Shown here piece by piece: positions 38,531 to 48,780 of a stretch of DNA of 64,000 nucleotides. Each line of letters begins with the position of its first letter. The first letter of the stretch is position 1. The translations under genes were made by a program, and so were the position numbers. The notes beneath the pieces are model-generated. The model was given only the letters and a program-made list of their open reading frames with translations. It did not search any database and was not told the origin of the DNA. This DNA comes from Acanthochlamys bracteata (Eukaryota; Streptophyta; Magnoliopsida; Pandanales; Velloziaceae), in the NCBI GenBank assembly GCA_019914995.1, contig CM034129.1, positions 8,115,725 to 8,179,724 of the forward strand, in the 5' to 3' direction.

Positions 38531-41500
38531 TTGTGCATGAACAAGATACAAACAGAAGCATTCATCAATCCATGCTGCATCACTAAGTAGCGTCAACTAG
38601 AAACAAATTCAAACTCAAAAAACCAGCAACCACCAGGACATGGAAGTATCAGCAACATGAATTGAATCAAAAGCAACAAAATCAAGGTTTTTTAACCATC
38701 TATGTAGCTGACTTGCTGGACGAATTTTCTGTCTCACCTCATTACTCAGTGGAAGTTACCATATCACAGTTTGAATTATGAAATAGTAGAACATATCTTT
38801 ATGGGTAAGTATGACCTCAGCATATTCATCTAGGATTTGGTACGACCTGTTTAGTGCCCATTTCCAGTAGTTGGAGACATCTTCACTTTAAAATAATGGG
38901 TTCAGATAATTAAACTCGATCCCTACAATATTTCAGCAAATCTGGAATAAACAAAACGTAGCAGTAACTTTATTGTAGTGATCCAAGGCAAGCATTGCTG
39001 CAGTTCTGTGCAAGAGCTTTTATAAACGGGCAGTGGCATCATTGTTCAATTGCTAGAGGAGCAAGAGGGAATTCATGAAACTGCTACGGTACTGGAATTA
39101 TCCTGACATACCAAGATGTCATCGGTACGGTTCACCATGTCAAATCAGCTGCATAACAGAAACAGATTTGAACGAAATGTTCTATCGTTATTTTCCTTGC
39201 AAATAATATCAGACAAAAAACCAGCAGAAAATTCTTACTTTAGACATATCACAGTCAGGCATGTTCATTCTCCCACTTTACTCAAGAATCCTGACATGCA
39301 CCAACTCAAGAATAATCCTCCAAGATAAAAGAAACTCTACAGTGTAAAGAAGCAAGAATATAACCAAAACGCGAGCATGTTCCCCAGTAGCACGCATCAC
39401 GAGGCTTTAGAACTTTTACTATTTAGGATATCCGGAAGCAGCCAAAACCTAGCATGAAGCAAGGTAGTAGATTCATATTTAATTTATTTTGAGCGTCTTT
39501 TGCCTTTAGGATGCTATATATACATTGGATTCCTACTGTACATGCACCACAGGCATTTGCCATTGTGCATCTACGACTAGCAGAAAGAAATGGATCAAAT
39601 GGCTGCAGCAACAACAGGAGCAAATAGTGCTGTGCAAAAGATGCAGATAATCAAGGGCGAACGGGGTCTCTTTTGCATCGTCAGATAACAGTGTTGTCAT
39701 GAGGCAGATACTTGGCACACATGCACCTGATGGCCGGGAGATTGATGTCCGGCCCATCTTGCATGTGGCAGAAGACATCTTACAAAGGGCCACCCCTACG
39801 ATGTTTTTGGTACATACACCAAACTTCATTACTAACACACTAGTAGCTTTTTCTATTCAACCATATGCAAAACCTCTTACCATAGATGCATACTTAAATT
39901 CAACTCAGCAAATGCTTGCAAAAGGTAAGCATCTACAACTGATTGAGTTACATGGTTGACAAAAGCAAGATTAAAAGACTTAGAAGCTACACATTCAATC
40001 AGATGAAGAACACATAAACCTTTTACTTGCAGAAACTAAGTGTATGCATCTGCATAAACCTTCTCTACTTCACCGTTTAAAAGTAATTGCTGCAAAATGA
40101 GATAAACTGCCTGCATGCCAGTAGTCCTACAATGTTGGCCTGTTGAGCGATCTCTTAAACCTCCTCTCTTGCTAAAACCGCCTGATCGTTTATAAGTCTA
40201 GCTAATTAGTCATGTGATGCATGCAAGTTAATATATTCTTAGGATGGAAGAAATCCCAAACTTCTAAGAGAAATAGCATATGTCTAAAGCTCTTTTCCAT
40301 TGCTTTTGTTACTAGAGTAATAAAAAGCAATATGTTACCGTTTATATTTATGACACCTTTCTTTCATTGTCAAGAGATCTATTCACTTTGTTTCTTTTTT
40401 ATGTGGTCATAAAAACAAATTCTGACTTCATCCTCCTTTAAATACAAACACAGTAAAAGATAGGATAGGTGTGCCATCCTACCTAAGTAACGGTAAGCAG
40501 GAAATAAGAGTAGGTATGTCACAATATTAGCAAATATACAGCATTACAATATGAATTGCAATGCTGCACTACAAAGAAGTAATTTACACTGCAGAAAAGA
40601 GCAATACCTTGTATGATGAGATTCTCATGAGAATTACAAGCCTTGACTCACTTTCATTTCAAAGTTTTCATTTACTTCTCCTAATTCTCCCTGTTTTCGA
40701 ATCTAATGGTGTTGTACTAAGATATATTCATTTCTTAAGTCTTTATGATGATTTAAACTTCAATCAAGGAAAGTTGTTGGCAAAAATCCTAGAATTTGAC
40801 TGCTCCTAGTAGGAAAATGTCTCACTTTTGTTGTCGATATGTTCCTTGCAGACACCACAAGATCAAACAGAAGGCATTGCCGACAGGATTTACCATCATC
40901 CTGGCGTAATTAGTATGTTTGAGGTCCTAGCATATGCCATCCACAAAATAACTTGCGAGGTTACTCACCCTACCCTACTTAACATGTTATCTATCCATTT
41001 TTTTAACATTATTTATGCCTTGAAAACTATTCTATGTTTCCATCCTAATAGTCTTCCCGGTATCTAATGCATCAAATGCACCTTTAAGTTACCACCATTC
41101 CTATGTGAAATATGTATCAAGCAGATCTTATAAGTAACAAGGTTGTTTGATATTTTGCAGTTAACTTGCAAATGCTCTGGAGCTACGGATGCACACGGAA
41201 CAACCTTGCACTTGTTCACTTCACTCTCAAGCTACGCTTGGGATGTCAAGGCAGTCTTGGTTCTGGCAGCCTTTGCTGTGGCATATGGTGAATTCTGGTT
41301 AATTCCGCAACTACACACCCTCAATCCTTTAGCCAAATCAATTGCACTCCTCAAGCAGGTTCCAGATATCCTGGAGCACACTGATCTCTTAAAACCTCGA
41401 TTTGATGCCATTAACAATCTCATTAGAGAAATGGTCGAGGTCACTAGGTGTATAGTTGAGTTTAAAGAGCTGCCAACCGAGTACATTTTTCCTGACAGTC

Positions 41501-43675
41501 CTGACATGGCCACAGCAATGGCACACATTCCAACTGCAGCTTATTGGATCATGAGGAGTGCAATCGCTTGCGCAGCCCAGATTGTTGGGCTAATTGGCCT
41601 AAGCCATGAGTATGTGAACCTAGTACTCTTTAAGAACAAAAAAATAAAATAAAAATTCTACAAATGAACACTAAAAGCAAAATCTTGGTTTTCGGTTCCA
41701 GGTATATTAGTTCCACAACGGACGCATGGGAGCTTTCAAGTTTGGCTCACAAACTGAGCAATATACATGGGCACCTCAAGAAGCAGCTGAGACACTGCCA
41801 TCACTACATTGGTAAGTCAAAGGGGCTAAGAAGTCGATATTATTTGCAGATGAAGGGATGTTATGCTCATAGTTTAGCAATTACCTACTTTATGTCTGAG
41901 ATATAAATCAATGATGTTGGACTTACAGTTTGCCAGTTTCAAGCTCACAACTCTCTTGCTGTATTGCTTTCCCTATCAAAGTAATTAACTTATATTAACA
42001 GTTAGAGGTAAGAACCTATGTCAGTCAGATAAATTGTAACTGACTTCCAGAAACATCAGAGCATTGGTCTTTTTTTCTTTTATTTCTTTATTTCTTCTTC
42101 TTAGAAGAAACCATCAAGTGTTCTATGCATGCATAATTAGTGCCAACCAATTTTAACCTTCAATTTCAAATTTGCAAACTCAAGCAATTAGCTCTATTTT
42201 GTTAATTATTTTTCCTTAAAAATAAATCAGACTCATAACTTAGTGTAAACTACATCGATGTGTAATGTAAGAGGAAGCACATTGGTTTCCAGCATGTTAA
42301 GTTCCTTATAATGCCAAAATGGAAACTTATGTAAATGGCACGTCAAAACTAGATTAGACTCATGACAGAGAGAAATTAAGTGATTACACTTAGGGAGCAA
42401 TGCTATAAAAAATATCTGTTTTATCATGTAGATGAGAGGAAGCACATTAAAGCTTACCAGAGCGTTGTGAGCCTGTTCGAGACCCCCCATATTGATAACA
42501 TGAAGATCCTCAAAGTACTACTTTACTCGAAAGATGATCTGCCACTCATGAATGGCACCACCAAAAGAAGAGTCAGCATTGACGTGCTCCGAAGTAAGAT
42601 TGTCATGTTCCTCATCTCAGACCTTGAAATTAGCCACGAAGAACTCGCTGTCCTTGTTCAGATATACAGTGATACACACGAGGGTGGACTTGAAAGGCAT
42701 TATGAGATTGTGTGGCTCCCAATTATTGACAAGCATATCCCATGGGATGATCCAAAGGAAGAGGCATTCAACCGAGTGGCATCAACAATGCCTTGGTACT
42801 TTGTGCATCACCCTTCCTTGGTTGAACAAGCAGTTATCAAATATGCAAGGGATGCATGGCACTTTGACAAGAAGCCATTACTAGTGGTACTGGATCCACA
42901 AGGAAAGGTTGTATGCCCAAATGCCCTCCACATGATGTGGATATGGGGAAGATTAGCCTACCCTTTCACCACCAGCAAGGAGGAGGCCCTTTGGAGAGAT
43001 GAGACATGGAGGCTGGAGTTCTTGGTTGATGAGATTGATACAGAAATACTTGCATGGGTAAGCACACTAGCCTCTTTGGGGAAATTTTAATAATCCTATA
43101 ATGCAAAAGTACAATGGAGTTCTGAACAATACTGGAAATAACTTTAGGGCTACAGGTTAACAGTTTGATACCAGGCTCCAACAGCTTAACTTTAGCACGA
43201 AACAGAGAGATTTATCTAGGCCCCTTGTTAACCTGATCATTTAATAAACTAAATGTAGAAATCACTGCAAAGAATTTCCAACCTAACATACCAAAAGTTA
43301 TTATCTGCTTCAAAAAACAATATCGTAGCCCCTAAAAGGATCGGTCCGGGCTTCTACTATATGCTCTATCCTGCTCTTCCTATACCTTCGCATGGGATCA
43401 TGCCTGACTACTTTGTACGTAGGTTCAAGAAGGCCGTTATGTTTGCTTATATGGAGGACATAACATAGAATGGATCAGGAGATTCACTACCCTTATGAGG
43501 GGTGTGGCAATAGAAGCTGGGATTCAATTGGAGATGGTCTATGTAGGTAGGAGCAACCCCAAGGACCGTGTAAGGAAAGCTATTGCAACAATCGGAGCAG
43601 AGAAGCTAAGCGGATACTGGCAAGACCTGGTGAAGGTCTGCTTCTTCTGGGTTCGGCTGGAGAGCATGCTCTACT

Positions 43676-46551
43676 CATTACTACAAATTGGGTCTTTACC
43701 GACCTCAAAATTTAGTCGGTATTGGCATCAAAATCAGTCGGTAATACCAATTACCGACTAAAAATATGATAGTCGGCCATCCGTCGGCAATGACTGGTCG
43801 CTAAACGATTTACCGACTACACGATAAATTCAGTCGGTAATGAACAGTAAATTACCGACTAAATTTAAAATAATCGATAATTTTAGTTTACCGACTAAAA
43901 TTTTCAGTGGCTAAATTCTGAATTAGCGACTGAAATTCAGTACGGTAATTTCAATTTACCCACTAAATTTTTAATCATTAAATTTGCCTAATAAAATTAT
44001 AATTAATATTTATTAAATGATAACAAAATCATTTATATTCATTAAAAATATATAGAATATTCACCAAGATTTACAATTTTATATCCATTAAAGTCATCAT
44101 CAAATTAAATATACCAATTCATCAACCACAAAAATTTTCTCATAATTAAGTACAAATTTTTTCTTATCATTAAGTACTCCAAACAAGCTCTTTGTCTGAT
44201 CAAGGTACACTTCAAACAGACTCTTAGTCTTATTGTTGAGTACTCCATATGGTCATTGGCTTTGAAAATCATTATCTGGATACCTCTTGTCACACTCTTG
44301 TAGTTATCTCAATTTGCCGGAGATTGGAGGGACAAGAATTGCTTGGAGATTCCAACAGTACTTCAGATTAGGGAGCACCAAAACAGAGAAACAACGTGAG
44401 TTCTAGCTCCTGTACTAAAGCTGCATAAACAAAGACCGAACTCATCTAGCTGTCTGAAAATGGCAATGCAAGAACCAGCAACATCTATATATCTGAAAAT
44501 TTTGATACGAGGATCAGCATATGAGATAACGAAAAATGGCTAAGATAAAACGAATAGCACCATGATTCATATACTTCATGCACACACCAGAAACTCAAAC
44601 TTCCAATATGCAATTCCAGATAACAGAACAACCAATGAAGGCAATGCAGCTAACGCCAAGAAAGATACCAAATACAATGAGGATACTCTAACAAATACCT
44701 CTTCTGTTCAGCTGCATAGAGCTTCGCCTCAAGCCGCGGACCAAGCTCTTCCTCTTGAGACGACCATGATGGGCTCCTAAATTCAATTCTGTCAAAGAAG
44801 AACTTCAAATCAAGTCTAAGCACTTTAATTCAATTCTACATTGATTCAGCAGTAACTTAGACTCAAACATGAAGCCATATAAGATGGAATAAACATCCCG
44901 ACTTCAAGAATGACTCAAGCTTAACCAGTCCCAACTTCCAAGAGGTTAAAGGAAATAGAAGTGATTCAAGCTATAAAATCCAAAGTAAGGCTCCAACAGG
45001 TAGAAATTTTAAGCTAGGCAGAAGCTTTGCATAGAAAATTAGATGGATGAGGATCAAGATCTGAAAAACCTCCTAAACATAAATTTGAGCTTTTAGAAAA
45101 ACGTTTTACTTTCATCTTTTGCAAACCAAAATAATAACAAGATCAAATCAGGAACTAAGGAAAGTACTTTTTTCTCTAAACTACTTGTTATTAAAATAAA
45201 AAATCTACTAGAGGAACTGAGGAAGTAGCTAACACAATCACAGGTGAAGATCGACCAGATTTCGATGTAATTAAGAAAAATCACAAGCTACACTGAAATT
45301 CAGGTTTGCAAACTATGCACAAGATCATAACGTAAAAAACTGAGTAACTCCCACAACTAAAACATGAGAAGAGGAAAACGACAGATTGCAAAACACCACT
45401 TAATCACAAAAAATAAACTAACATGCAAATCTCTCAACAAATAGTTCTCAATCACGCTCGAAAGATCTCCTACAGCTATACTATACAAAATCAATAAAAA
45501 CCTAGAATCAAGGAGTGCCTATTGAAGAAGGGAAACGGAAACAGTAGCCATAACAAAGCAATCACTATTTGTAGATAAATCGAGAACCAAAACCAAACAT
45601 TAGAATCAAAATTCCAGCCCTAAATCACTTGTCGTCTGAGATCAGCGTCTCTAAGCTTAGCTTCGATCTCCTCAGCGCTGAGCAGCGGCGGGCTGCTCCG
45701 TCTTTCGATTAACCTCCGGCGAATTCTCCGGGGAACCTCTCCCGGCATTGATCCAACTGAAAAATCCAATGCAATTGTCTAGGGTTCAACTACTGAAGCT
45801 ATAAGGTCACTTCATTCCCCAAATCAGAAACCAAACAAAATCAAATCAAAGCAAATAAAAAGAAAGGTTGGACTACTAGCTTGCTTCAGTTGGGGGCAAA
45901 AGTAAGCATTCACCAGCAGCAGTTAGGAACACAGAGACTGCAGAAAGCGAGAGCCGGTCTGCTTCCTCTCTTCACCAGAACAAACAAAACCAAAAAAAAT
46001 AAATTAAGGAGCAGGTAATCACTGTTGAGTAGGGAAGTATAGAATTAATTTATGAGGGGGATGTTGGCTACAGCAAGAATTGCTTACTTTCTTCGCCGGT
46101 CGTAGATGAAACCTGCAGTCACGCGCCGGAGAAGGAAGCGAGGTTTTCGGCGAGCAGGAGCAGGTGAGAAAGAAATAAGAGTAGTACTGATCGAACTGGT
46201 CAACTGGAACTTACTAAAACTGATAAATACCGAGTGACTAAAAAATTCAGTCCGGTAAAGTTACCGACTAAAAATATTTTTAGTCGATAATTAATATGAA
46301 TTACCGACTAAATTTATTTCAGTCGGTAAAATTATCGATTGAAAGTAAATTCAGTCGGTAATTAATATAAATTATCGATTAAATTATATTTCAGTCGATA
46401 AATAAATTGATTTATCGATCGATAGTCTAGTCAGTTGGTAAATACAAAAAAAATATCGACTAAATTTTTTTCGTCGGTATTGATAGATTTGATGACTGTA
46501 TTATTTCAGTCGGTATATTTTCAGTCGCTGAAAATTATTTTTGTAGTAGTG
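43676..46551. mobile_element. non-autonomous CACTA (EnSpm-type) transposon in SEO exon 6
   Basis: 2,876 bp with terminal inverted repeats: left CATTACTACAAATT, right (reverse complement) CACTACTACAAAAAT. It is flanked by the direct repeat ACT at 43673-43675 and 46552-46554, the 3-bp duplication typical of CACTA elements. Both subterminal zones (about 43700-43930 and 46226-46530) are packed with short repeats in both orientations, TTACCGACTAAA and CAGTCGGTAA, which in this superfamily bind transposase. No transposase reading frame is visible, so it depends on a partner elsewhere. The interior contains a host-gene-like fragment at 45629-45778. One TIR base differs from the canonical CACTA at the left end (CATTA). 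Confidence 0.88.
45629..45778 (-). pseudogene. captured TCP11-like first-exon fragment inside the CACTA element
   Basis: On the minus strand a frame reads IALDFSV, then MPGEVPRRIRRRLIERRS and SAEEIEAKLRDADLRRQ, followed at once by GTGATT, a plausible splice donor. As I remember the family, the N-terminus of plant T-complex-protein-11-like (TCP11) proteins has this order: an aliphatic ALDFPV start, VPRRLRRRLL, then VEEIEAKLR.ADLRRQ. The fragment stops where the first intron would begin, and the GC-richer sequence further upstream on this strand (45,860-46,150) could be its captured 5' UTR. There is a stop before IALDFSV, so any translation would start at the ATG at 45748. It is probably a transduplicated piece, not a working gene. 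The family name is moderately sure; that it is foreign to the transposon is more certain. Confidence 0.6.
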
Positions 46552-48780
46552 ACTCCAAAATGCAGTATGTCAGAAGTATTGCGGATGACCACATGATGCA
46601 GGAGGTAATGACATTGTTGAGCTTTGACAGCAGTGAAGAGGGGTGGACACTGATAACCAAGGGTTCCAAGGAAATGGAGAAGGCCAATGGGAAGAAGATT
46701 CTAGAATGTCTTGCGCAATTTGACCAGTGGAAGCCCAATGTGGAGGATCAAGGATTTATTCCTGCTCTCTCAAATGCATTGGCACCATTCCATACACGTG
46801 AACACTGCACTCGCCTCATACTCCCTGGGGACCCTAACATGATCGAGGAACGAGTGGTGTGTGCAGAGTGTAAGCGCCCCATGGAAAAGTTTGTCCTGTA
46901 CCGCTGCTGCAATGACTGAAACCAAAAGCTATGAGAAGGTCTAGGTAATGCACAACTCTTGCTGTTTCCTGTTGGTGCCAATAGCAGGTTGGTGGCTTAT
47001 TAGTCATTTTTAAAGGTTAGAATAAGAAGCGTGTGAACTTGCTGTAGGTTGTGTGTGTCCCTGTGTGTAGGTTGTGTGCATCTTCTGATCCTTATGAGAT
47101 CAAATTAAGACGTTGATTTCCTAATGCATTAAAACAAACTTCTATGAATTAATTGGTATGTTTGCCTCTGCCTTGCATTTTCTGATTGTTGTGAGTGTCA
47201 TTCAAATATCCCCGGGAAATTATTGCAACCAATATGCTACATTGAAATCATGTGGCAAAGTTCAAGTTTAGCCTAGTTATTAGTAGTTGATTAAAAATTT
47301 ACTCAGATATGGTAGTAATTGCCAATAACAGCAGATGTCTAATAATCATACTGACAGTGATCATTTGGAATATATGGCAACATATGTTTCCATTCATACA
47401 TAGCTATTTTTAGCTTCTTTGTTGTCTAGTATGGAATAATGCATAGTAGGTAGTTCTTCATGTACTGTAGCATCTATGTATATCTATATACCAAGGTGTA
47501 TTGAATCAAAAGTAAAGAAACTCCAGCACTAGTGTAGTGCAGTTTGTATCCAGATTCATTTTGTTTACTTGTTTAAGTTATTTTATCTGATCATGACTAA
47601 AAGAAAACGTGTTTGGAAGTCCATAAGAGTAAAACAAGAAGAACAATAGGATATTTAAACATTTTAGTTCTTGTGAACAAAAATCCAACAGTCTCCTGAA
47701 ACTCTAACCTTGCCCCTCAGGCAGCAGTACAGCTAGGGAAGCACCTAGGTAGAGTTTGTCAGATTATCTGATGCCATGGGGCTTTCAGCAACTCAAACGA
47801 CTTGCTTAACTAGAGAGATTAAAGAGACTCAGAATCATCCTTCTATTCACAAAACTAAGAGGTTTGCTACTCAAAAGGTTACTGCCCCGGAAAAGGTCAT
47901 TCTTATGAAAATAAAAACCGAAAAGTAAATATGAGCAGTTAAAGTGTTACAATGCATTTTACATGCTACACACAAAACACAAGGCAGATGTAAAAATTCA
48001 GTTTTACACGCTCCTTACGAAGAGACAGTTATCACAAGGTAAAATAGAGAAAAGAATGCCAAATGTGGATACCAACCTGCTTTTCTTTGCTGTTAACTAC
48101 TGTCTAAACTCAATAATCCCTGCAGCAGTTATCACTTCCCTTTTGGCCATGCAACATCTGATCAGTTATCTTCATAAAAATACCTGAATACAGAGTACGA
48201 AGCAAATTAATGATTGTGATATCAGACAAAAAGAACACTATGTTAGGCCATTAGGTTGTACTCCCTACTGAAGCGGCAACATAGGCACCAGTAAATTTCA
48301 AAGACTGCCAGGGATTATTGTCATAATAGGAACACGTAGGGACTACTGGCACTTATATATGTCATTATAATCAAAGAGAAATATTACATAGTAGAACGTC
48401 CTCAAAAGTGGCACCTCTAACTTTTCAACAAATACACGTACCTGCCTTTTCCATTTGTTTTATTCCCCACAAAAGAACATGCCCCTATCAAGGAACAACC
48501 CAAAGAAACATATATAGAATATGCTCCAAAAATAGTAAGAAAGCAGAAACTAATATGCATCTCTGCTACTTTAAGTTTGTAAGGGTGGTAAGAAATCCAT
48601 CAGTAAATTTGCCACTTTTGTACAGAAAACAGTTCTTTAAGTAAGCTCTCGGAGTAGAATGTCTATGCAAGTGTTTCTCTGTGCTGATTCAGTTCCTAGG
48701 CTTCCCTAACCTTACATTAGCATGCATGATCTCAGAAATGCATATTAAGCAATTTAAATTGGTAATGTCTTCCAAGAGAT

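Follow-up and report, generated by a model that had tools for sequence, protein, structure and literature searches.

CACTA elements leave target duplications of 3 bp, as described in PMC8978399 and PMC8195511, and host gene fragments are described in PMC8195511 as typical of the non-autonomous ones. Such an element can also affect the transcripts of the gene in which it lies: Tgm-Express1, a CACTA element in a soybean gene, was described as giving transcripts with complex splicing (PMC1947982). On the side of the host gene considered here, a C-terminal cysteine motif was described for all SEO proteins in PMC3017817, whose authors thought that redundancy allows some SEO members to be unexpressed or to carry frameshifts.

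We analyzed an SEO gene that is interrupted by an element of this kind. The gene lies in the window, by which we mean the whole stretch of 64,000 nucleotides under analysis (C4:8115725-8179724, from a plant assembly of 195.5 Mb in 557 contigs). According to our own exon model, it runs from 39590 to 46919 on the plus strand and has six exons, the last of which is broken after position 43675 by an insert of 2,876 bp (43676-46551). The parts of the gene are as follows.

39590 to 39809, plus strand: SEO exon 1, with one extra base before 39699 relative to both C6 paralogs
40852 to 40959, plus strand: SEO exon 2, from the gene model
41161 to 41609, plus strand: SEO exon 3, with the SEO_N domain
41702 to 41811, plus strand: SEO exon 4, from the gene model
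42432 to 43057, plus strand: SEO exon 5, from a domain match and the gene model
43423 to 43675, plus strand: last SEO exon, part 5' of the element, from domains, paralog alignment and the gene model
46555 to 46919, plus strand: last SEO exon, part 3' of the element, about 120 codons with a cysteine-rich motif, open to the native stop

Both SEO_N and SEO_C domains were found in the parts of the gene, and its C-terminus carries the cysteine motif, which places it in the SEO family. Two uninterrupted SEO paralogs (L033 and L034) lie close together on C6, with a more distant paralog (L035) nearby. When the two parts of the last exon were joined and aligned with L033 and L034, 84% and 83% of 206 positions were identical, and the alignment was gap-free.

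These paralogs carry the site in uninterrupted form. At the junction, the DNA of both has one ACT followed by CCAAAATG; the joined flanks of the window read FWVRLESMLYSKMQYVRS, which aligns gap-free with the FWVRLESMLHSKMQHGRS and FWVRLESMLHSKMQHGKS of the paralogs. The sequence-only reading had claimed that the insert splits an SEO exon between two ACT triplets, and had predicted the sequence of the empty junction. Both claims were borne out, by the ACT on either side of the insert and by the single ACT of the two uninterrupted genes. It had further stressed that removal of the element restores the frame exactly. Removal of the element and one ACT does restore the frame, but the exactness adds no evidence: it holds whenever an insertion in an exon duplicates its target, proves nothing about use, and was rejected as a sign of function. 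The ends of the insert and its target site are laid out below.

43673 to 43675: target-site duplication ACT, left copy, where the paralogs have a single ACT
43676 to 46551: non-autonomous CACTA (Pack-CACTA) element, 2,876 bp
43676 to 43687, plus strand: left terminal inverted repeat CATTACTACAAA, third base T (C in 15/15 other copies read)
43676 to 43995: left subterminal repeat zone, 9 TACCGACTAAA-like units
43759 to 43761, plus strand: stop codon met when SEO is read unspliced into the element, about 28 codons in
46216 to 46551: right subterminal repeat zone, 10 TACCGACTAAA-like units
46540 to 46551, minus strand: right terminal inverted repeat (TTTGTAGTAGTG), from the reading of the end
46552 to 46554: target-site duplication ACT, right copy, read from the sequence

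The insert is a non-autonomous CACTA (En/Spm) element. Its right end, as the reverse complement, begins with CACTA (CACTACTACAAA), and its left end is the same with one base changed. A comparison of CATTACTACAAATT with the reverse complement of the right end, CACTACTACAAAAA, gave 11 matches in 14 bases, all 11 within the first 12. Short subterminal repeats in both orientations were found at the ends only: with up to two mismatches allowed, TACCGACTAAA-like units occurred 9 times in the left 320 bp, 10 times in the right 336 bp and not once in the middle 2,220 bp. Against these 19 units in 656 bp, shuffling both ends 200 times gave 0.26 units on average and never more than 3. End searches of the assembly listed 30 left-end and 46 right-end matches, the window's own included, from which 15 other copies could be paired. 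Their left ends start with CACTA in 14 cases and CACTG in one; 12 have exact 3-bp duplications, of 11 different triplets, and 3 lack an exact one. With the window copy and its ACT/ACT, an exact 3-bp duplication is thus present in 13 of the 16 copies read at both ends. Taken together, the inverted terminal repeats, the 3-bp duplication, the subterminal repeats and the relatives bear out the identification of the insert as CACTA that had been made from the letters alone.

A Pfam scan of the 15 ORFs of at least 50 aa that lie wholly inside the element gave no match and no transposase domain, and the element is therefore non-autonomous. A related right end was found on C15 (82% over 359 bp), near Transposase_21 and Transpos_assoc matches, and the Transposase_21 match contains three stop codons. 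This locus (L077, C15:3424500-3430500) is a decayed, transposase-bearing CACTA relative. It points to the kind of transposase that may be involved, rather than to an active source. The element would have been mobilised in trans by an En/Spm-type transposase.

The interior of the element is captured DNA, in three adjoining pieces.

44354 to 44487, probably minus strand: match to a C6 locus (98% over element 679-812), which we read as intron-like
44487 to 45772, minus strand: TCP11-family gene fragment, antisense to SEO, matching C5:7542826-7544114
45770 to 46055, probably minus strand: second match to that C6 locus (88% over element 2095-2380), which we read as leader-like

The TCP11 fragment (element 812-2097) is identical to the C5 gene in 1226 of 1324 alignment columns, or 93% counting gaps. 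By our own reading it would begin inside exon 1, take in intron 1 and part of exon 2, and extend into intron 2. Tcp11 domain matches were found in four ORFs further down the C5 gene, three above the curated cut-off of 27 and the fourth at 23.7 bits. Neither the captured pieces nor three ORFs that lie upstream in the C5 gene had a Pfam match when searched for this domain. The locus that matches the two flanking pieces (L026, C6:6596671-6599977) may be a second captured gene. A search of its 3.3 kb for a terminal-repeat pair found none, only one 12-base match with two mismatches, and it thus looks like host DNA and not like another copy of the element. Because the interior consists of this captured DNA, lying between CACTA ends with no transposase gene found in the 15 ORFs, we classify the element as a Pack-CACTA.

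Related elements on C4 and C7 agree with the window copy at both ends and over most of the leader-like piece; they lack the TCP11 piece. Most simply, the leader would have been captured first, and TCP11 afterwards, in the line that gave rise to the copies in the window, on C18 and on C8. We also noticed, on comparing window 44487-45772 with L032:1827-3115, that a 12-bp in-frame stretch and the exon-1 GT donor are present in the element's TCP11 piece and in a C3 paralog, and absent from the present C5 gene. The element seems to keep an older TCP11 state and may be a fossil of its donor gene.

The sister copy on C18 is full length, has the target duplication ATA and differs from the window copy at 59 of 2,871 aligned sites (K80 0.021). 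Of these differences, 56 could be compared with the C8 copy, which assigned 16 to the window branch and 38 to the C18 branch and left 2 ambiguous. They are dense towards both ends, the right above all, and sparse in the middle. In the comparison of C18 (L030, C18:4262400-4266400) with window 43676-46551, 46 of the 59 are transitions. Such mostly transition differences, concentrated at the ends, are what methylation-driven decay would give. The 16 window-branch changes, over about 2,300 sites, would set an upper bound of 0.7% on the stay at SEO. At a substitution rate of 7e-9 per site per year, this would correspond to about a million years, with a wide error. That the insertion is recent, as had been suggested from the window alone, is therefore supported in relative terms by the close C18 sister and the few window-branch changes.

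We next consider the state of the gene. Translation of an unspliced transcript would continue into the element for about 28 codons, as far as the stop at 43759-43761. This stop precedes the last 120 or so residues, so that the unspliced reading, taken from the sequence, loses them together with the cysteine motif; a loss of the Cys-rich C-terminus had been predicted, and it is supported here. The gene carries a separate change in exon 1. As it stands, the frame from the first ATG (39590) runs for 32 codons and ends at a stop in codon 33 (39686-39688). Both C6 paralogs are in frame across exon 1, and the window copy is one base longer. The extra base either arose as a lesion unconnected with the transposon or is an error in base calling. 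An ATG in the frame of the paralogs follows at 39699, from which the exons join as 673 codons to the native stop with no further lesion. The good conservation that had been stated for the rest of the gene is thus confirmed over the 673 codons from 39699, and exon 1 has its own lesion.

From 39699 onwards, the exons 5' and 3' of the element are all open and conserved (omega 0.20 and 0.27 against the two paralogs), and the SEO gene is one that was under constraint for most of its history. We also calculated omega for the exon part after the element (0.36 and 0.32 against the paralogs), as a possible sign of selection since the insertion. The value between the paralogs is similar there (0.37) and few changes are expected since the insertion, so this comparison was uninformative.

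The SEO locus is most likely a recent two-hit pseudogene. The whole explanation, to which we give a probability of roughly 85%, is that a Pack-CACTA insertion and the exon-1 lesion made it so and that this was tolerated beside uninterrupted paralogs. The element would have inserted at ACT in the last exon and duplicated the triplet, as the anatomy of the site indicates; the separate extra base, seen in the assembly, would end the first-ATG frame at codon 33; and the loss would have been tolerated thanks to the two uninterrupted neighbouring paralogs on C6. Three observations count against a pseudogene. The open and conserved exons from 39699, with their low omega, are also expected of a gene still in use; translation that began at the ATG at 39699 would avoid the exon-1 lesion and forgo 36 residues (by the count in the paralogs); and in-frame splice paths exist that lead round or out of the element.

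Compatible with the pseudogene explanation is the possibility that the insertion segregates or that the element still excises, leaving an uninterrupted exon in some plants or cells. A close full-length sister copy does exist on C18, and excision of CACTA elements has been described in soybean (PMC4219821) and in lettuce (PMC8195511). Against this, the third terminal base is changed (CATTA) in the window copy alone of the 16, which may hinder re-excision. Nor was an empty allele found: when the 557 contigs of the assembly were searched, using as queries the SEO_C family and the opening part of the last exon, the window gene and the C6 loci were all that came up. We regard segregation or continued excision as possible but doubtful.

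We consider it unlikely that the element has become a new intron, with splice sites at its ends that join the exon parts in frame and give a slightly altered SEO protein. The best candidate pair at the ends, a donor at 43719 (TCG/GTATTG) with tandem acceptors (TTTTTGTAG/TAG/, first exon base 46547 or 46550; slashes mark the cuts), leaves the reading open and in frame. Wholly inside the two 285-bp ends there are 11 in-frame, stop-free pairs, and the best score was reached by 10 of 300 shuffles that preserved base composition alone. However, such pairs are common, at least one being present in 101 of the 300 shuffled ends, and in-frame joins are thus weak evidence of function. The donor is also weak: with plant score tables, it scored -0.29. 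Of the 15 native donors in the three SEO genes, 12 have a higher score and the other 3 score -1.51. In a wider search, 67 of 504 pairs were in frame and stop-free; the candidate pair ranked seventh, and the top two used cryptic exonic sites on both sides. The earlier proposal that the element may be spliced out like an intron therefore keeps its in-frame terminal GT-AG pair but is weakened by the poor donor and by the 10 shuffles that score as high. Moreover, splicing out of the element would leave the exon-1 lesion unrepaired.

Precedents for such an intron exist. A dSpm element in maize A2 is reportedly spliced as a novel intron, according to the title of Menssen et al. 1990, and the exonic Evelknievel retroelement in Arabidopsis CMT1 has been described as spliced out. 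Like the SEO element, dSpm is CACTA-type with potential splice sites at its ends, which in the SEO element are predicted ones; the SEO side differs in its weak donor and in the second lesion of the host gene. An intron in a still-working SEO gene would have to use the left GT and the right tandem AGs, add a short peptide before SKMQ and start at 39699, and we judge this combination very improbable. Finally, an assembly artefact that wrongly joined the element and its flanks can be practically dismissed, given the target duplication, the family termini and the agreement of both flanks with the uninterrupted paralogs and the other copies.

The locus shows cleanly how a CACTA element with gene cargo can interrupt an exon in one of a duplicated set of phloem P-protein genes, in a genome that also holds uninterrupted paralogs, a full-length sister element and a matching donor-type gene. 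In annotation, it should be flagged as a probable pseudogene. It may also serve as a test site for the conversion of a transposon into an intron, and no general view is changed by it. With one of three closely related SEO genes interrupted by a Pack-CACTA, the case is an ordinary one of an already known kind.

A search of the literature on SEO genes with transposons or pseudogenes found no case like this one among the 12 titles listed of 5,128. The SEO pseudogenes of soybean and Arabidopsis described in PMC3017817 are likewise members of the family that are unexpressed or carry frameshifts; unlike those described there, the window gene also has its last exon interrupted by a transposon. The element itself resembles the Pack-CACTA or Pack-TYPE elements described in PMC8903248 in its CACTA ends, target duplication, captured host DNA and lack of a transposase, whereas the rice and maize CACTA elements of that source are given target duplications of 5 nt instead of the 3 bp seen here. 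LsC1, a CACTA element of lettuce (PMC8195511), is likewise non-autonomous, sits in a host gene and has a 3-bp duplication, but it is described as active and lies in the 5' UTR of ANS. Tgm-Express1 in soybean F3H (PMC1947982) is alike in being a CACTA element that carries host gene fragments inside a host gene; it is described as lying in intron 2 with five unrelated gene fragments, whereas the SEO element lies in an exon and carries pieces that match two loci.
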